From Candidatus Cryptoclostridium obscurum (GTDB taxonomy: Bacteria; Bacillota; Dehalobacteriia; UBA7702), in assembly GCA_904420535.1 (NCBI GenBank), contig CAJFVQ010000006.1, forward strand, positions 1-44,538: a stretch of DNA of 44,538 nt, in the 5' to 3' direction. The notes beneath the pieces were generated by a model. The model saw nothing but the letters and a program-made list of their open reading frames with translations. It was not told the DNA's origin and ran no database searches. How positions within the stretch are numbered: position 1 is the stretch's first letter; every line of letters begins with the position of its first letter. Below, piece after piece: positions 4,803 through 44,538 of this stretch. A program made the translations under genes and the position numbers.

Positions 4803-5426
4803 ATGTGCAATCAAAGCTATTCCAAATTGAGAGAAATTAACTTCGATGATTATAAAGAAAGACAGGTTCCGATTGGTATTTCCAACCGTCACGTCCATGT
4901 AAGCCAAGCTGACTTGGAAAAACTTTTCGGCGAAGGATACGAACTTACTCCCAAAAAGGATTTGAGCCAACCTGGCCAATTTGCCTGTGAAGAATGCGTT
5001 GACGTCGTGGGTCCCAAAGGAACCATTGAAAGAGTCCGCATCCTCGGCCCTGTCCGTCCCGAAACTCAGGTGGAATTGGCTCAGACCGATGCCAGAAAAA
5101 TTGGCGTTAACGCTGCACTTCGCGAGTCCGGTGTGTTGGACGGTACCGAAGGCTGTAAACTCGTGGGCCCCAAAGGCGAAATCGAATTGGAAAAGGGTTG
5201 CATTGTCGCACACCTTCACATTCATTTCCATACTGATGAAGCCGCCAAAATGGGGATTAAAGATCATCAGGTTCTTACTGTTCTCGTTCGCGGTCAGAAA
5301 AACGTTCTTTTCTGCGATGTTATTGCCCGTGTTGGAGATAAGATGAAGCTTGATTTCCATCTCGATACCGATGAAGCCAATGCTGCTCTCGTTGGCCCTG
5401 GTGCTGTAGGCATTATTCTTGACTGA
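4803..5426 (+). CDS. pduL: Phosphate acyltransferase, PduL type
   Basis: The 207-residue protein carries both PduL half-domains: SNRHVHV with H30/H32, the GPVRPETQVE segment with R85, the second histidine cluster HLHIHFH (H139, H141), and H186 near the C terminus. These are the expected two-zinc-site ligands and active-site arginine of the family. PduL interconverts acyl-CoA plus phosphate with acyl-phosphate plus CoA (propanoyl or acetyl). No microcompartment shell or diol/ethanolamine genes are nearby, and the N-terminal extension before the first domain is only about 20 residues. I infer a cytosolic Pta-like role in energy conservation. The second motif reads HLHIH where many relatives have RHIH. 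It has its own promoter and a terminator at 5449. Confidence 0.93.
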   Translation: MCNQSYSKLREINFDDYKERQVPIGISNRHVHVSQADLEKLFGEGYELTPKKDLSQPGQFACEECVDVVGPKGTIERVRILGPVRPETQVELAQTDARKIGVNAALRESGVLDGTEGCKLVGPKGEIELEKGCIVAHLHIHFHTDEAAKMGIKDHQVLTVLVRGQKNVLFCDVIARVGDKMKLDFHLDTDEANAALVGPGAVGIILD

Positions 5427-39099: not shown

Positions 39100-40243
39100 T
39101 TATTCGATCAAGCAGATTAGATCGTAGAAGTCCTGTTGATGTTCATCTATGAAGTGAAGTGTTTTGACAAGATGAGATAAATAGTAGTAATATTCATATT
39201 CATTGAAGTTCTCCCAATCATTGAAGAAATCAGTGGACCAATGGTAGAGATAAATGGCTCCGGCAAGGACAAAGGAAGGAAATGCTTTCTTTTCTTCCTC
39301 GGTAAATGGGGGGAAGGATACCATATTCTTTTGTATAGTCATGATATCCTTGAAGATAAGCTTTGACGCGCTCCATATCCATGGTGCCGTCGATCATAGC
39401 TTCCCAAGCGGCAATGGATATCACCAGAGAATAACCGATATCAGCCAAGCGATAATCCTCTTTGGACCAGTCAAAATCAAAAACACCGATGCACTTACCA
39501 TCTTTCCATTTTACATTGGAGACATGATAGTCGCAATGGCAGCAAGTTTTGGGAATCGAACCCAACATTCCGGAATCTTCCATTCCTTTTCTTGCTTTGT
39601 CGCACATGGCCAAAAGGTAGTCGAGATGGTCTTGGTACAGCATAAAGTAACGGTTCCTTGGAGGAATGGGAAGACCGTCGGGACAATGGACAAAGTAGTC
39701 TTTTTTCACCTCAAGAAATTCATAAATTGGAGGCTCAATTTTTTCTCCTCCTTGGAATCCGTAGACACAGTTGTGAAACTTTGCCAAAACTCCGGCCATG
39801 CTGTAGTATTCTTCATTTTTCAAGTTATTGTTGATCCAGTCGTAAGGATCGTCGCCATAAAGATAGTCGTAAACAGCCCAAGGGTACATTAAAGTTTTGC
39901 CATTGACCTCTTTAGGCATTTTTACAAAAGTTTTGTTTTCCGGAGTTTTGATGACTCCGGCAGCGAGGTCAAAACCGTGTTCAATGGCATAGGTAACGAG
40001 AGCGTGCTCTACTTTGATATCTTCGTCGGCAGTAGTAAGGCGATACCTGCGAATAAAGTAATCCACAGGTTTTCCGTCCGGAGTAGTTACTTCCACGCCG
40101 AAACTGCGGTTGACGTAGCCTCCGAAGATTTCATAGACTTTCTCCAATGTGCCCAGTTGATAAATATCTTCGATTAGCGATTGTATTTCCTGGAATTCGG
40201 AAGTGTATTGTTCAAAAAGCTTTTTCTCTTTCGGATCGATCAT
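39100..40243 (-). pseudogene. Frameshifted APH/CotS-like phosphotransferase
   Basis: The ATG at 40243 after GGGAGG opens the gene. Residues 1-312 form a protein-kinase-like small-molecule kinase (APH family): VHCPDGL, H236-C-D-Y-H240-x2-N243 as the catalytic loop and D256-F-D258 as the magnesium motif. At a run of six G/C (39308-39313) the frame slips; with five, PP would continue into FTEEEKKAFPSFVLAG and end in YDLICLIE at 39100, giving about 380 residues. As written, the kinase ends in 27 odd residues. The phosphorylated substrate is unknown (homoserine, choline-like amine or other). It is divergent from the transporter gene and carries a MerR-type promoter. Confidence 0.8.
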
Positions 40244-40326
40244 GTTTAATATCCTCCCTTGATAATCTTTGTTGATAAAAAGCCGTACTCCGAACAAAAA
40301 ATTGTCCCTAGTCCCTCGAGTACTCA

Positions 40327-40381
40327 CTCATCATAAACCTGCGCCCAACAGCCAAGTCAATACCCTTTTTTAAAAAGTTTT
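40327..40381 (-). promoter_or_regulatory. Left MerR-type promoter, arm of inverted repeat
   Basis: On the minus strand TTGACT (40360-40355) and TATGAT (40335-40330) are 19 bp apart. CTGTTGGGCGCAG (partial dyad) is centred at 40345, exactly mid-spacer. The sequence from the A/T run to TATGATGA repeats on the right side in opposite orientation. It faces the kinase gene. Confidence 0.7.
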
Positions 40382-40659
40382 TTCTATTGTAATATTTTGC
40401 GCTGAAGTTTAGAAAAAACATTGAGTGAGAAATGCTTTTTGCTGACGCTGTTTTCTTAAAACGTTTATGTAATGATTGATATGCTTATTTAACTGGTATT
40501 TTGATGTCATTTTTTGCGGATGAAATAATGTGATCAAAATGAGAAAAAATTTATTTCGTATTTTTTTCTGTAGGAAATCTTGTCATCAATTGGTTGTTCA
40601 GGGAAAATACAGAAGCTTTTGAGAGCGTGGAAATAAATACGGATAAAAAGTTGCTTAAA
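40382..40659. other. AT-rich spacer between divergent promoters
   Basis: About 280 bp without a gene, ribosome site or clear hairpin separates the inverted promoter copies. It is very AT-rich with runs of A and T. I see nothing more in it. Confidence 0.5.
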
Positions 40660-40718
40660 TTTAAAAATTTTTTTAAAAAGGGTATTGACTTGGCTGTTGG
40701 GAACAGGTTTATGATGAT
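40660..40718 (+). promoter_or_regulatory. Right MerR-type promoter, arm of inverted repeat
   Basis: TTGACT (40685-40690) and TATGAT (40710-40715) are 19 bp apart. CTGTT-GGG-AACAG (40694-40706) is a perfect 5-bp dyad centred at 40700, exactly mid-spacer. Such over-long spacers with central dyads are the mark of MerR-activated promoters. It faces the transporter-mttB unit. Confidence 0.75.
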
Positions 40719-40799
40719 TCCATACTCAGTAGGCCGTGGACATGTCTTCCAACTGAAGTACTAAATTTGAAATTTGAATTTCGGAAAGAAGGGATATTC

Positions 40800-41900
40800 T
40801 TGGGAATTTCTACAAATGAAGCTGTCAATACCGCGCTAAAACGCGACTATCGTAAAACAAAGGCGCGTTTCCTTCGTAAAGGCCTTATGTTTGCCTTTGC
40901 TTCCGGTATCAGTTATGGTTTGTTCTCTGCTTTTTTGACAGTTGGCGAAGCCTGGGGTGTGTGGAATGAATTCTGGGCGTTGCCCATAGCCGGGACGATC
41001 ATCGGCTATTGCCTACTCAGTGCCGTTGGATCAGGTTTAAATGATTTGATTTCCGGGGTTTGGTGTCTGATCATTGCTACCGCAAAAGGAAAAATGCGCG
41101 ATTTTTGGCCCGGTTTAAAGTCAAAGCCCGGTCGCTTAATTATCTGCGGTGCTCTTTGCGGTGCCATTGCTTCTACCTGCTATATCATCGGTTTAATGAT
41201 GGCCGGTGGAATCGCTGCTGCCGTTACTGCACTTTGCTCCGCTGTTGGCGCAATTTTAGCTAGGATTCTCTATAAGCAAAAATTAAACCTTCGTATGATC
41301 TGCGGTATTATGGTGTGTTTTATCGCGGCCGTTGTTCTCGGCGGTACTACATTGGGAAATATTGATACTACTGCCACCATTGGTATGTGCATTGCCTTTA
41401 TTGCCGCCATTGCCTGGGGGGTAGAGGGGTGCATCGCTGGTTACGGTACCATTATGGTGGATTATGAAATCGCGATTACAATCCGGCAAATTACTTCCGG
41501 TATTGCTCAATTGATCGTATTAGTCCCTATTTTTTGTATGATTGCCAACGCCACTGTTGATATGAGCGGTGTGGAAGGCAACCCCTATTTCTTCTTTGTC
41601 GGCGGCGCTATCTGTACTGTTGCAATATTGTGGTTCATTATTTCCGGATTTTTTGCCAATCCCGCCTATTCTCTGTGGTATAAAGGAAACTCTATGTGCG
41701 GTACAGCTTTGGGAATGGTTTGCAATGCCATGTATGCTTTTTGGAGTCCATTTTTCATGATGGTTGTTTGTGGATGGATTCTTGGCTGGGAGGGATATAC
41801 CCTTACCCCGGTTCAATGGCTGATGGCTCTCGTTGAAATTTTCGGCATTTGGCTAATCGCCATGAATCCTTTGGACTTGTTTCGAAAAAAGGAGGCTTGA
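40800..41900 (+). CDS. DMT-superfamily (EamA-like) transporter
   Basis: I prefer TTG 40800 (366 residues, first residues MGISTNEAVNTALKRDYRK), which has GAAGGGA 6 nt upstream; TTG 40767 would add 11 residues. About ten membrane helices in two similar halves, including GLMFAFASGISYGLFSAF, CGALCGAIASTCYIIGL and FIAAIAWGVEGCIAGYG, fit the drug/metabolite transporter layout. It would import or export a small molecule across the cytoplasmic membrane. Sitting ahead of an MttB-family gene, it is a candidate importer for the methylated substrate. The stop is 3 nt before the next start. Confidence 0.8.
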   Translation: MGISTNEAVNTALKRDYRKTKARFLRKGLMFAFASGISYGLFSAFLTVGEAWGVWNEFWALPIAGTIIGYCLLSAVGSGLNDLISGVWCLIIATAKGKMRDFWPGLKSKPGRLIICGALCGAIASTCYIIGLMMAGGIAAAVTALCSAVGAILARILYKQKLNLRMICGIMVCFIAAVVLGGTTLGNIDTTATIGMCIAFIAAIAWGVEGCIAGYGTIMVDYEIAITIRQITSGIAQLIVLVPIFCMIANATVDMSGVEGNPYFFFVGGAICTVAILWFIISGFFANPAYSLWYKGNSMCGTALGMVCNAMYAFWSPFFMMVVCGWILGWEGYTLTPVQWLMALVEIFGIWLIAMNPLDLFRKKEA

Positions 41901-41903
41901 AGA

Positions 41904-42173
41904 GTGAGTAAAAGACCCTTAAATTTTGCGGTGCTGAAATACATGACCACTGTTGATGTGGCCTGTGTTGACGATGTGATGGCAGCATTAGAGGATGAAT
42001 ATTCTGATTGGAAGATGTTCAAGCCCTCTGGAATTCTCGAGGTTCTGATGACTGGCGAAAAAAATGATTTGCTTGTTGAGGATCATTATGAGTATAATAA
42101 AAATGGCGAATTGATGATCTATTATCGTGCTCCCGAAGAGGGGAGAGCAACGATCAATTCTTACATTAAATAG
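41904..42173 (+). CDS. Unknown 89-residue protein
   Basis: GTG at 41904, after AAAGGAGG (41888-41894), gives 89 residues. Its helices (VACVDDVMAALEDEYSDW, GILEVLMTGEKNDLL) followed by a beta pair (GELMIYYRAPEEGRATINSY) suggest a small winged-helix-like fold, but I recognise no family. It is tightly packed after the transporter and before mttB, so it probably serves the same pathway, perhaps in regulation or as an accessory protein. Confidence 0.65.
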   Translation: MSKRPLNFAVLKYMTTVDVACVDDVMAALEDEYSDWKMFKPSGILEVLMTGEKNDLLVEDHYEYNKNGELMIYYRAPEEGRATINSYIK

Positions 42174-42321: not shown

Positions 42322-43752
42322 ATGAATTTAGCAGGACAATTAAAGGTTTTATCTGACAGCGACATGCAAATGGTGCATGAAAAGGCTTTGGAGCTTTTGG
42401 AAGAAAAAGGTGTTGTTTTTCAATCTGACAAGGCTGTTGAAACCTTCCGTAAGCATGGAGCAAAGGTCACCGACCACACTGTAATGATCCCCAAAGACAT
42501 GGTAATGAAAGCATTGTCTCAGTGCCCGCCTTCTTTTTTGTTGGAAGGTATGAATCCCGATAAAAACGTTACTATTGGTGAGGGGTTGGCCATTCATCCT
42601 GCTGGCGGCGAGGTATTTATGAGAGACTTTGACGGCAAACGCCGTACCGCTACGCTGGAAGATTTTTCCAACCTTCAAAAAGTTTATCAGGCGTTAGATA
42701 ACGTTGACATCTGTGGTTACCAGCCGGTCAGTCCTTCTGATGTTAATAAGAGAGTCATGGGCCTTCACTGCTTGCTGGCGTCTTTCAAAAACAGTGACAA
42801 GCCCATTCTCAGCCCCATGGAATTGGAAACCATCGAAGAAAAAGAAGAATGCCTGAAACTTTTTGATATTGTCTATGGGAAGGAAGGCTATGTTCAGGAA
42901 CACTATTTAACGTGGCATATCGCCACTCCCAATTCCCCATTATTCTATTCTGAGTTCGCCTGTGAAGGTATTCGTGTATTTGCGGAATATAATCAACCGA
43001 TTACTTTGGTATCGGCTCCCATGAACGGTATTACTGCTCCGATTTATCTTTATTCTACAGTTATTTTGGATGTTGTTGAAACTTTGGCCGGTCTTGTATA
43101 TGCGCAGTTGGTGCGTCCTGGTGTTCCTATAATTACATCCGCGACGTTGACTTCCGGGAATATGCGCTATGCGACTTGGGAGTGCGCATCTCCCGATTCT
43201 GCTCTCATGCTTGCAGCTACGGTACAAATGTATAAGAGTTTCTATCATCTTCCCACTCGTTCCCAAACCGGTGTTACAAGCTCTAAAACCATCGACTATC
43301 AGGCAGGAATGGAAGTGATGCAGAGCTTTCTCTTTACCGCCTTGGCTGGCGTGAATCTAACCAGTAACTCTGTGGGCGCGCTCTCTAACTTAATGACGAC
43401 TTCTTTGGAAAAATGCGTTCTTGACGATGAAATGATCAGCCGTGTCCGCTTCATGATTAACGGGATGAACACCTCAGAAGAACACATGGGGATGAAAGAA
43501 TTGATGGAATGTAAGCCTTGCCAGGACTTTTTAATGGCAGATTCCACCATGATGCATGTCCGGGACGGTTGGCAGCCTACAGTTTCTGATTGGCGCTCCA
43601 GCGACGCTTGGGAAGCCGATGGGTTCAAAGACGTTGTGGAAACCGCCCATGAAAAAGTTGTACATATTTTGGAAGATGCACCGGAGTCTTTGCTTGATCC
43701 CGCCCAAGAAAAGGAAATTACCGATTATATTAAATCTGTGGAAAAAGCTTGA
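42322..43752 (+). CDS. MttB-family corrinoid methyltransferase, non-pyrrolysine
   Basis: The 476-residue protein is an MttB (trimethylamine methyltransferase) family member: LLEEKGVVFQSDKAVETF near the start, FLLEGMNPDKNVTIGEG, HPAGGEVFMRDF, and the LTSGNMRYATWECASPDSAL region of the barrel. There is no in-frame TAG, so pyrrolysine is absent. Characterised relatives move a methyl group from glycine betaine, proline betaine or carnitine to a corrinoid protein. The substrate here is unknown, and no MttC-like corrinoid protein is encoded in the window. GAGGTTAT precedes the ATG. Confidence 0.9.
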   Translation: MNLAGQLKVLSDSDMQMVHEKALELLEEKGVVFQSDKAVETFRKHGAKVTDHTVMIPKDMVMKALSQCPPSFLLEGMNPDKNVTIGEGLAIHPAGGEVFMRDFDGKRRTATLEDFSNLQKVYQALDNVDICGYQPVSPSDVNKRVMGLHCLLASFKNSDKPILSPMELETIEEKEECLKLFDIVYGKEGYVQEHYLTWHIATPNSPLFYSEFACEGIRVFAEYNQPITLVSAPMNGITAPIYLYSTVILDVVETLAGLVYAQLVRPGVPIITSATLTSGNMRYATWECASPDSALMLAATVQMYKSFYHLPTRSQTGVTSSKTIDYQAGMEVMQSFLFTALAGVNLTSNSVGALSNLMTTSLEKCVLDDEMISRVRFMINGMNTSEEHMGMKELMECKPCQDFLMADSTMMHVRDGWQPTVSDWRSSDAWEADGFKDVVETAHEKVVHILEDAPESLLDPAQEKEITDYIKSVEKA

Positions 43753-43806
43753 GACAAAATCATTATTGTGTTATGATTTACCAAGGGGCCGAGGAGTGAT
43801 GGGTGT

Positions 43807-44538
43807 ATGAAAAAACAGTTTTCTCCCGGGGATATCCGTAATCTTCTTGGGATCAGTCGGTCAGCAATTCGTTACTATATGGACAAGGGATTGATTTCCG
43901 CGCAAAAAAATGAGGAAAACGGCTATTCCTACTACGATTGGTGCAATCTTGAAGAAATGCTTGATGTTACATATTTTAGAAATTGTATGAATGCCGAGGC
44001 CAAGGATATTTGGGAGATTACTCACAGTACGTCTCCCAAAGAATATCACGACGCTTATTCCAAACAGATCAAACAATTTGAGGAAAATATCTATCGCCAG
44101 CAGATTCATTTGGAAATGCTTTATAATTTTAATGAAAAGATTGAACGCGCGATGAACTCCCAAAATATCATCAAGGAGATCACTCTAGAAGAGCCCTTTT
44201 GGGTTTACTATCCGGAAATGGATGAATGCCCCGGTGTCCGTACTGCTCTATTTTCTACCAGTTACTGGGGAAGCGAGTATGTGATGGAAAATGGTACTTT
44301 AAACTATAAAGGATTTGTCATGATGACAGATGAGAAAAACCTGGCCTTTTTAGATAAAGAATCTTCGGGTATTTCTGCAAGAAAGATCCCGGGAGGTCGG
44401 TTTTTATACACTTCATTGTGTAGCGATAGAGGGACTCGACGATCCATCCCTTGTGGAACCTCTTACATCTTATATTAGAGAACATCAGATGGAAACATCA
44501 GAACCGATTTACCTTTGGTATCTTTTGACCTTTCGAAA
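43807..44538 (+). pseudogene. MerR-family regulator, frameshifted and cut by window end
   Basis: The ATG at 43807 after GAGGAG starts a MerR HTH: FSPGDIRNLLGISRSAIRYYMDKGLI and YSYYDWCNLEEMLDV. A helix (about 65-120) leads to a GyrI-like effector domain (LEEPFWVYYPEMDE, YKGFVMMTDEKN, RKIPGGRFLYTSL). At 44419 one extra base puts the frame out: the current reading ends at TAG 44476-44478, whereas the next frame continues VAIEGLDDPSLVEPL and EPIYLWYLLTFR to the window end without a stop. It is the likely regulator of the 19-bp-spacer promoters near 40.3 and 40.7 kb. Confidence 0.85.

Follow-up and report, generated by a model that had tools for sequence, protein, structure and literature searches.

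The analyzed window, 44,538 bp in length, was the entire contig C6 of a 2.1-Mb genome that is 99% complete and belongs to an uncultured, gut-type Firmicute. Close to its end, a kinase gene is divergent from a transporter gene, and the 523-bp intergenic region between them carries two outward-facing promoters on the arms of an inverted repeat. Genes for an MttB-superfamily methyltransferase and a MerR-family regulator follow the transporter gene. The features of the locus are as follows:

39230–40243, minus strand: APH-fold kinase, a proposed MthK-like choline kinase (PF01636, 3.2e-18; HxDxxxxN motif HCDYHVSN)
40318–40382, no strand: left arm of the inverted repeat, 65 nt, 88% complementary to the right arm
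40330–40360, minus strand: left promoter TTGACT-19-TATGAT (TTGACT at 40360–40355, spacer TGGCTGTTGGGCGCAGGTT, TATGAT at 40335–40330)
40337–40357, minus strand: left predicted MerR operator ACTTG-N11-CAGGT, centered at spacer position 8
40663–40727, no strand: right arm of the inverted repeat (core block 43/46 identical to that of the left arm)
40685–40715, plus strand: right promoter TTGACT-19-TATGAT (TTGACT at 40685–40690, spacer TGGCTGTTGGGAACAGGTT, TATGAT at 40710–40715)
40688–40708, plus strand: right predicted MerR operator ACTTG-N11-CAGGT, centered at spacer position 8
40694–40706, no strand: dyad CTGTT-GGG-AACAG of the sequence-only reading, centered at 40700; present, unconserved
40767–41900, plus strand: EamA/DMT-type transporter (EamA match below the cut-off)
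41904–42173, plus strand: 89-aa ORF (no Pfam or NCBIfam match), found 3' of the transporter gene in relatives too
42322–43752, plus strand: MttB-superfamily methyltransferase (PF06253, 1.8e-100; no in-frame stop, i.e., no pyrrolysine codon)
43749–43777, plus strand: promoter of merR itself, TTGAGA-17-TATGAT with a TGn extended -10, conserved in genome G003
43807–44478, plus strand: MerR-family regulator (44% identity to the MerR of G003 over 208 aa)

Comparisons covered a class sample of 43 genomes and a phylum sample of 399 genomes. The main comparison genome was G003, whose cassette was read from contigs C175 (locus L023) and C23; we infer that these are joined through a split mttB gene.

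The kinase gene was assigned the start ATG 40243, as the longer GTG-started frame in the ORF list crosses the promoter; besides HCDYHVSN, its product contains a DFDW motif. By comparison with G003, the transporter gene probably starts at a TTG near 40800. The product of the 89-aa ORF may, at a guess, be a small winged-helix or accessory protein; this ORF follows the transporter gene in several families, at both cut and mth-like loci (L024, L062–L066). The closest solved structures of MttB were 2qne (putative methyltransferase) and 9yce (glycine betaine methyltransferase). Relatives of the transporter with 45–52% identity, together with the 89-aa ORF, adjoin kinase genes and cut-type choline genes, among which CutC choline TMA-lyase in L065 and its activase in L066 passed the curated cut-offs. 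In Eubacterium limosum, the mth cluster has mthK (choline kinase) transcribed away from mthB and an EamA transporter gene, and its soluble products appear solely on choline (PMC12155760). The MttB structure matches, the neighborhood of the transporter relatives and the likeness to the E. limosum mth cluster thus make it most likely, on grounds of gene neighborhood and family, that the substrate of the cassette is choline or a closely related quaternary amine. The corrinoid protein MthC and the methyltransferase MthA were not recognized among the ORFs of the cassette as far as the end of the contig, or on contigs C175 and C23 of G003; these contigs are cut, so the two genes may lie elsewhere.

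Both promoters had been described in the sequence-only reading as a pair of outward-facing TTGACT-19-TATGAT elements, and their coordinates were borne out exactly. The right promoter is predicted to drive the transporter gene, the 89-aa ORF and mttB, and the left one the kinase gene. The inverted repeat in which they lie had been given as about 50 bp; it is present, with longer arms of 65 nt each at 88%, 280 nt apart. The best inverted-repeat score of the intergenic region was 43, whereas 300 dinucleotide shuffles averaged 11.3 and never exceeded 18; the repeat is therefore far beyond chance. A search of the genome with the arms gave only two matches, both at this locus, and no target-site duplication was seen around the repeat. 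A leader RNA element or riboswitch was rejected, as no Rfam family reached the gathering threshold in the leaders of six loci.

In G003 the kinase and transporter genes are divergent in the same order as in the window, the transporters being 79–80% identical, and both promoters are present. The transporter-side promoter of G003 is TTGACA TGGCTACAGCGCACAGGTT TAGTAT (L023 2737, plus strand) and the kinase-side promoter is TTGACA TGGTCATTACGGACAGGTC TATGAT, the left promoter reading TTGACATGG from L023 2615 on the minus strand. The spacer was 19 bp in all four sites, two in the window and two in G003. The distance from the first -35 base to the first -35 base was 325 bp in the window versus 122 bp in G003; this difference in spacing indicates that the two promoters act as separate units. 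Exact matches to TTGACWTGGN10CAGGTYTA were confined, among the 43 class genomes, to these four sites, with 0 matches to the reversed-pattern controls. One extra match was found in the 399 phylum genomes; it lies within an MFS coding gene and was regarded as a chance match in spite of corrinoid-protein genes close by. The two class genomes bearing the pattern are the same two that encode an orthologue of the MerR regulator, and the conservation sample is small because the arrangement was found in two genomes only.

The position of the operator was analyzed by counting symmetric base pairs for every spacer centre across the four sites. Centre 8.0 was the sole one with four pairs retained in 4/4 sites: (-2,18), (-1,17), (1,15), and (2,14). 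The conserved symmetry is ACwTG-N11-CAgGT, centered on spacer position 8. The sequence-only reading had placed dyads at the middle base of each spacer, at 40700 and, with two changed bases, at 40345. These are literally there, but they are not the conserved symmetry: a dyad at spacer centre 10 retains no pair in all four sites and was rejected as the operator. Placed as in the copA promoter, the CueR operator begins at the AC of TTGAC, which gives the same register, centre 8. The published consensus of the CueR operator is ACCTTCCC-(5)-TGGAAGGT within a 19-bp spacer (PMC1526738). The symmetry in the window is short, comprising 4/5 outer pairs, with a chance of about 1.6% in the pre-set register by our own estimate.

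Four other MerR loci of the window genome (L013, L015, L018, and L020) have 19-bp promoters with 7/8 pairs in the centre-8 register; such promoters precede an EutH gene (L013), a transporter-like gene (L018), and an MttB gene (L020). Compared with these, the window sites are weaker and fall below the 6/8-pair threshold of that scan. At L020 (1–1500) the MttB gene is divergent from a merR gene, with the 19-bp promoter TTGACT ctccctttgtgggatagta TATACT, which suggests that MttB genes are repeatedly under MerR control in this genome. A further kinase/MttB cassette of the window genome (L055, G000:C28) contained two MttB genes and a split merR-like gene. In a paralogous cassette (L007/L024, G000:C87) the kinase and transporter genes are co-directional and the transporter is 57% identical; a 17-bp promoter and no twin promoters were seen there by eye. 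Nor were 19-bp twin promoters seen by eye 5' of the transporter relatives in L062, L063, L065, and L066. The divergent kinase/transporter region of L062 and L063 has a different palindrome, GGACCGATATATTGGTCT in L062. This palindrome we take to be TetR-like and perhaps an operator of the TetR type. Upstream of the cut-cluster transporter gene in L064 (about 4930–4970, genome G132), TTGACATTCCCCAAGGGGGAATATGGTAGACT was found, a strong palindrome whose centre is position 8 and whose spacer may be 20 bp; a search with the MerR of G003 gave no merR gene in the 11 kb of this locus.

The merR gene lies directly after mttB in the window and also in G003 (contig C23). Its promoter in G003 is TTGAGT-17-TATGAT, and the conserved merR promoter overlaps the mttB stop codon. 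A class-wide search with the MerR of G003 at E <= 1e-20 gave matches solely in the two pattern-bearing genomes; the window genome has a second, more distant copy on C78. The merR frame of the window shifts near 44418–44434, some 110 bp before the contig ends, and the match to the MerR of G003 continues in another frame past the shift. The break is either an assembly error or decay; a search for a contig overlapping the window's end at merR gave none. The weak named matches of the window MerR include CueR and the choline-utilization activator model NF053782 (Dde_3219 type). The MerR HTH is shared with this model, to which the window and G003 regulators match weakly; a sister MerR encoded beside a related transporter in genome G002 scored higher (130 bits), and all these scores are far under the 450-bit cut-off of the model. 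The sister MerR of G002 has the C-terminal GyrI-like ligand domain of BmrR-like regulators (PF06445, 5.9e-07), for which the window and G003 regulators gave no match; their C-terminal domain had no confident Pfam match.

Taken as MerR-type promoters with 19-bp spacers, the window and G003 sites are supported by their conservation in G003, by the co-occurrence of merR, and by the MerR loci of the same genome; binding of the regulator to them is a prediction. An alternative is that they are conserved sigma-A promoters that are either constitutive and weak or under another regulator, the 19-bp spacing and the TGG/CAGGT blocks serving a non-MerR protein. The shortness of the operator symmetry favors it, and by inspection the blocks can be read almost equally well as a direct repeat, ACwTGG / ACAGGT. 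However, the conserved bases are exactly at the MerR half-site positions, the spacer is constant in every site, both genomes have merR in the cassette, and this promoter type is also used at other MerR loci of the window genome; we consider this alternative unlikely. Two others concern the repeat itself. Arms of 65 nt in inverted orientation, 280 nt apart, might be the terminal repeats of a small MITE-like mobile element that brought the promoters in; but the genome has no further copies of the arms, no target-site duplication accompanies them, and G003 has both promoters in the same places without long arms, so that this reading is largely refuted and most improbable. The same near-identical arms at the same distance could also form an invertible DNA switch for phase variation. 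Since both arms bear the same outward promoter, inverting the middle would leave the expression of both sides unchanged, and G003 has no comparable repeat; a switch is very improbable as well.

G003 also bears on the history of the repeat. The sequence-only reading proposed that a promoter was copied in inverted orientation to bring the kinase gene under the regulator, and it named the absence of the repeat from relatives with the same genes as counting against it. The long repeat is indeed missing from G003, where the best score was 14, inside the shuffle range, while the twin promoters are present there. The proposed purpose was thus not borne out: G003 has both promoters without the long repeat, so the repeat would represent, most likely, a later homogenization in the window lineage and not the origin of kinase control. 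The 45 bases preceding each -35 box were compared, with 2000 shuffles. The right side of the window matched the right side of G003 at 29/45 positions and the left side of the window at 26/45, neither value being reached by any of the 2000 shuffles. The left sides of the window and G003 matched at 17/45, which is background (382/2000 shuffles), and the left and right sides of G003 were weakly alike (21/45; 23/2000 shuffles). Inner-spacer identity between the twin promoters was 8/10 in the window versus 4/10 in G003, where the promoters match in their cores only. These sequence comparisons are most simply read as a twin layout that is older than the near-identity of the window arms. Later the right arm was probably copied over the left one, and gene conversion or inverted duplication may have been the mechanism. 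It is also conceivable, though doubtful, that each genome acquired its twin layout independently, a single promoter having been duplicated in inverted orientation. The left upstream region of the window, similar to its own right one and not to the left one of G003, would fit separate origins, as opposed to the common divergent order and common left core, which are explained more simply by shared ancestry, and to the weak likeness of the two G003 sides.

We conclude, with a probability of about 0.7, that a choline-type (quaternary amine) methyl-transfer cassette has its common control region in this intergenic region, with two separate MerR-activated promoters that fire outward, one into the kinase gene and the other into the transporter/89-aa ORF/mttB operon. 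A 19-bp spacer would be too long for sigma-A RNA polymerase alone to use efficiently. A dimer of the MerR encoded after mttB would sit on ACwTG-N11-CAgGT, overlapping the -35 end and stopping just before the -10. Upon binding a ligand, for which choline, phosphocholine, or a related quaternary amine is proposed, it would distort the spacer and turn both promoters on. Because merR has its own ordinary 17-bp promoter, the sensor would already be there before induction. As with MthK and MthB of E. limosum, the kinase would then phosphorylate the substrate after import, with MttB carrying out its demethylation. Such twin promoters probably let the whole choline-type nutrient pathway switch on together.

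The earlier MerR interpretation is therefore partly supported: right in kind, wrong on the operator position, and probably wrong on what the duplication achieved. The full form of the model, in which a choline- or phosphocholine-sensing MerR activates mth-type demethylation through a divergent long-spacer promoter pair kept alike by gene conversion, is put forward tentatively. The mth pathway, described in 2025, allows gut bacteria to consume choline without making trimethylamine, and the paper on the E. limosum cluster makes no mention of MerR (PMC12155760). If the model is true, this MerR would be, as far as we found, the first regulator proposed for the TMA-free choline pathway. The locus supplies a candidate regulator for the mth pathway with two promoters, one regulator, and few ligands. 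It also relocates the operator and gives a small, clear case in which the arms of a promoter pair became alike after the twin layout existed.

The window cassette and the E. limosum mth cluster share a kinase gene divergent from an EamA/LicB-like transporter gene and a non-pyrrolysine MttB-superfamily protein; unlike the E. limosum cluster, the window cassette has the 89-aa ORF and merR. In the cut clusters of other Bacillota (L065, L066), a related transporter gene and the 89-aa ORF are neighbors of a kinase gene (PF01633, L065) and of CutC. These clusters cleave choline by a glycyl-radical enzyme, whereas demethylation by MttB is proposed for the window cassette, and no twin 19-bp promoters were seen in L065, L066, and similar cut-type clusters. 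No precedent for twin divergent MerR promoters was found in literature searches. In Gram-negative mer, two divergent promoters are directly adjacent, whereas those of the window are separate, with near-identical arms in one intergenic region. The promoters of CueR/HmrR, MerR, and ZntR have a 19–20-bp spacer holding the operator, as is predicted for the 19-bp spacer of the window promoters, and, as in CueR-type operators, the predicted arms start at the AC of TTGAC with centre 8. Unlike in known MerR-family promoters, the predicted operator arms in the window are short and imperfect, and the promoter of merR itself, with its normal 17-bp spacer, stands apart from known MerR-family activated promoters.
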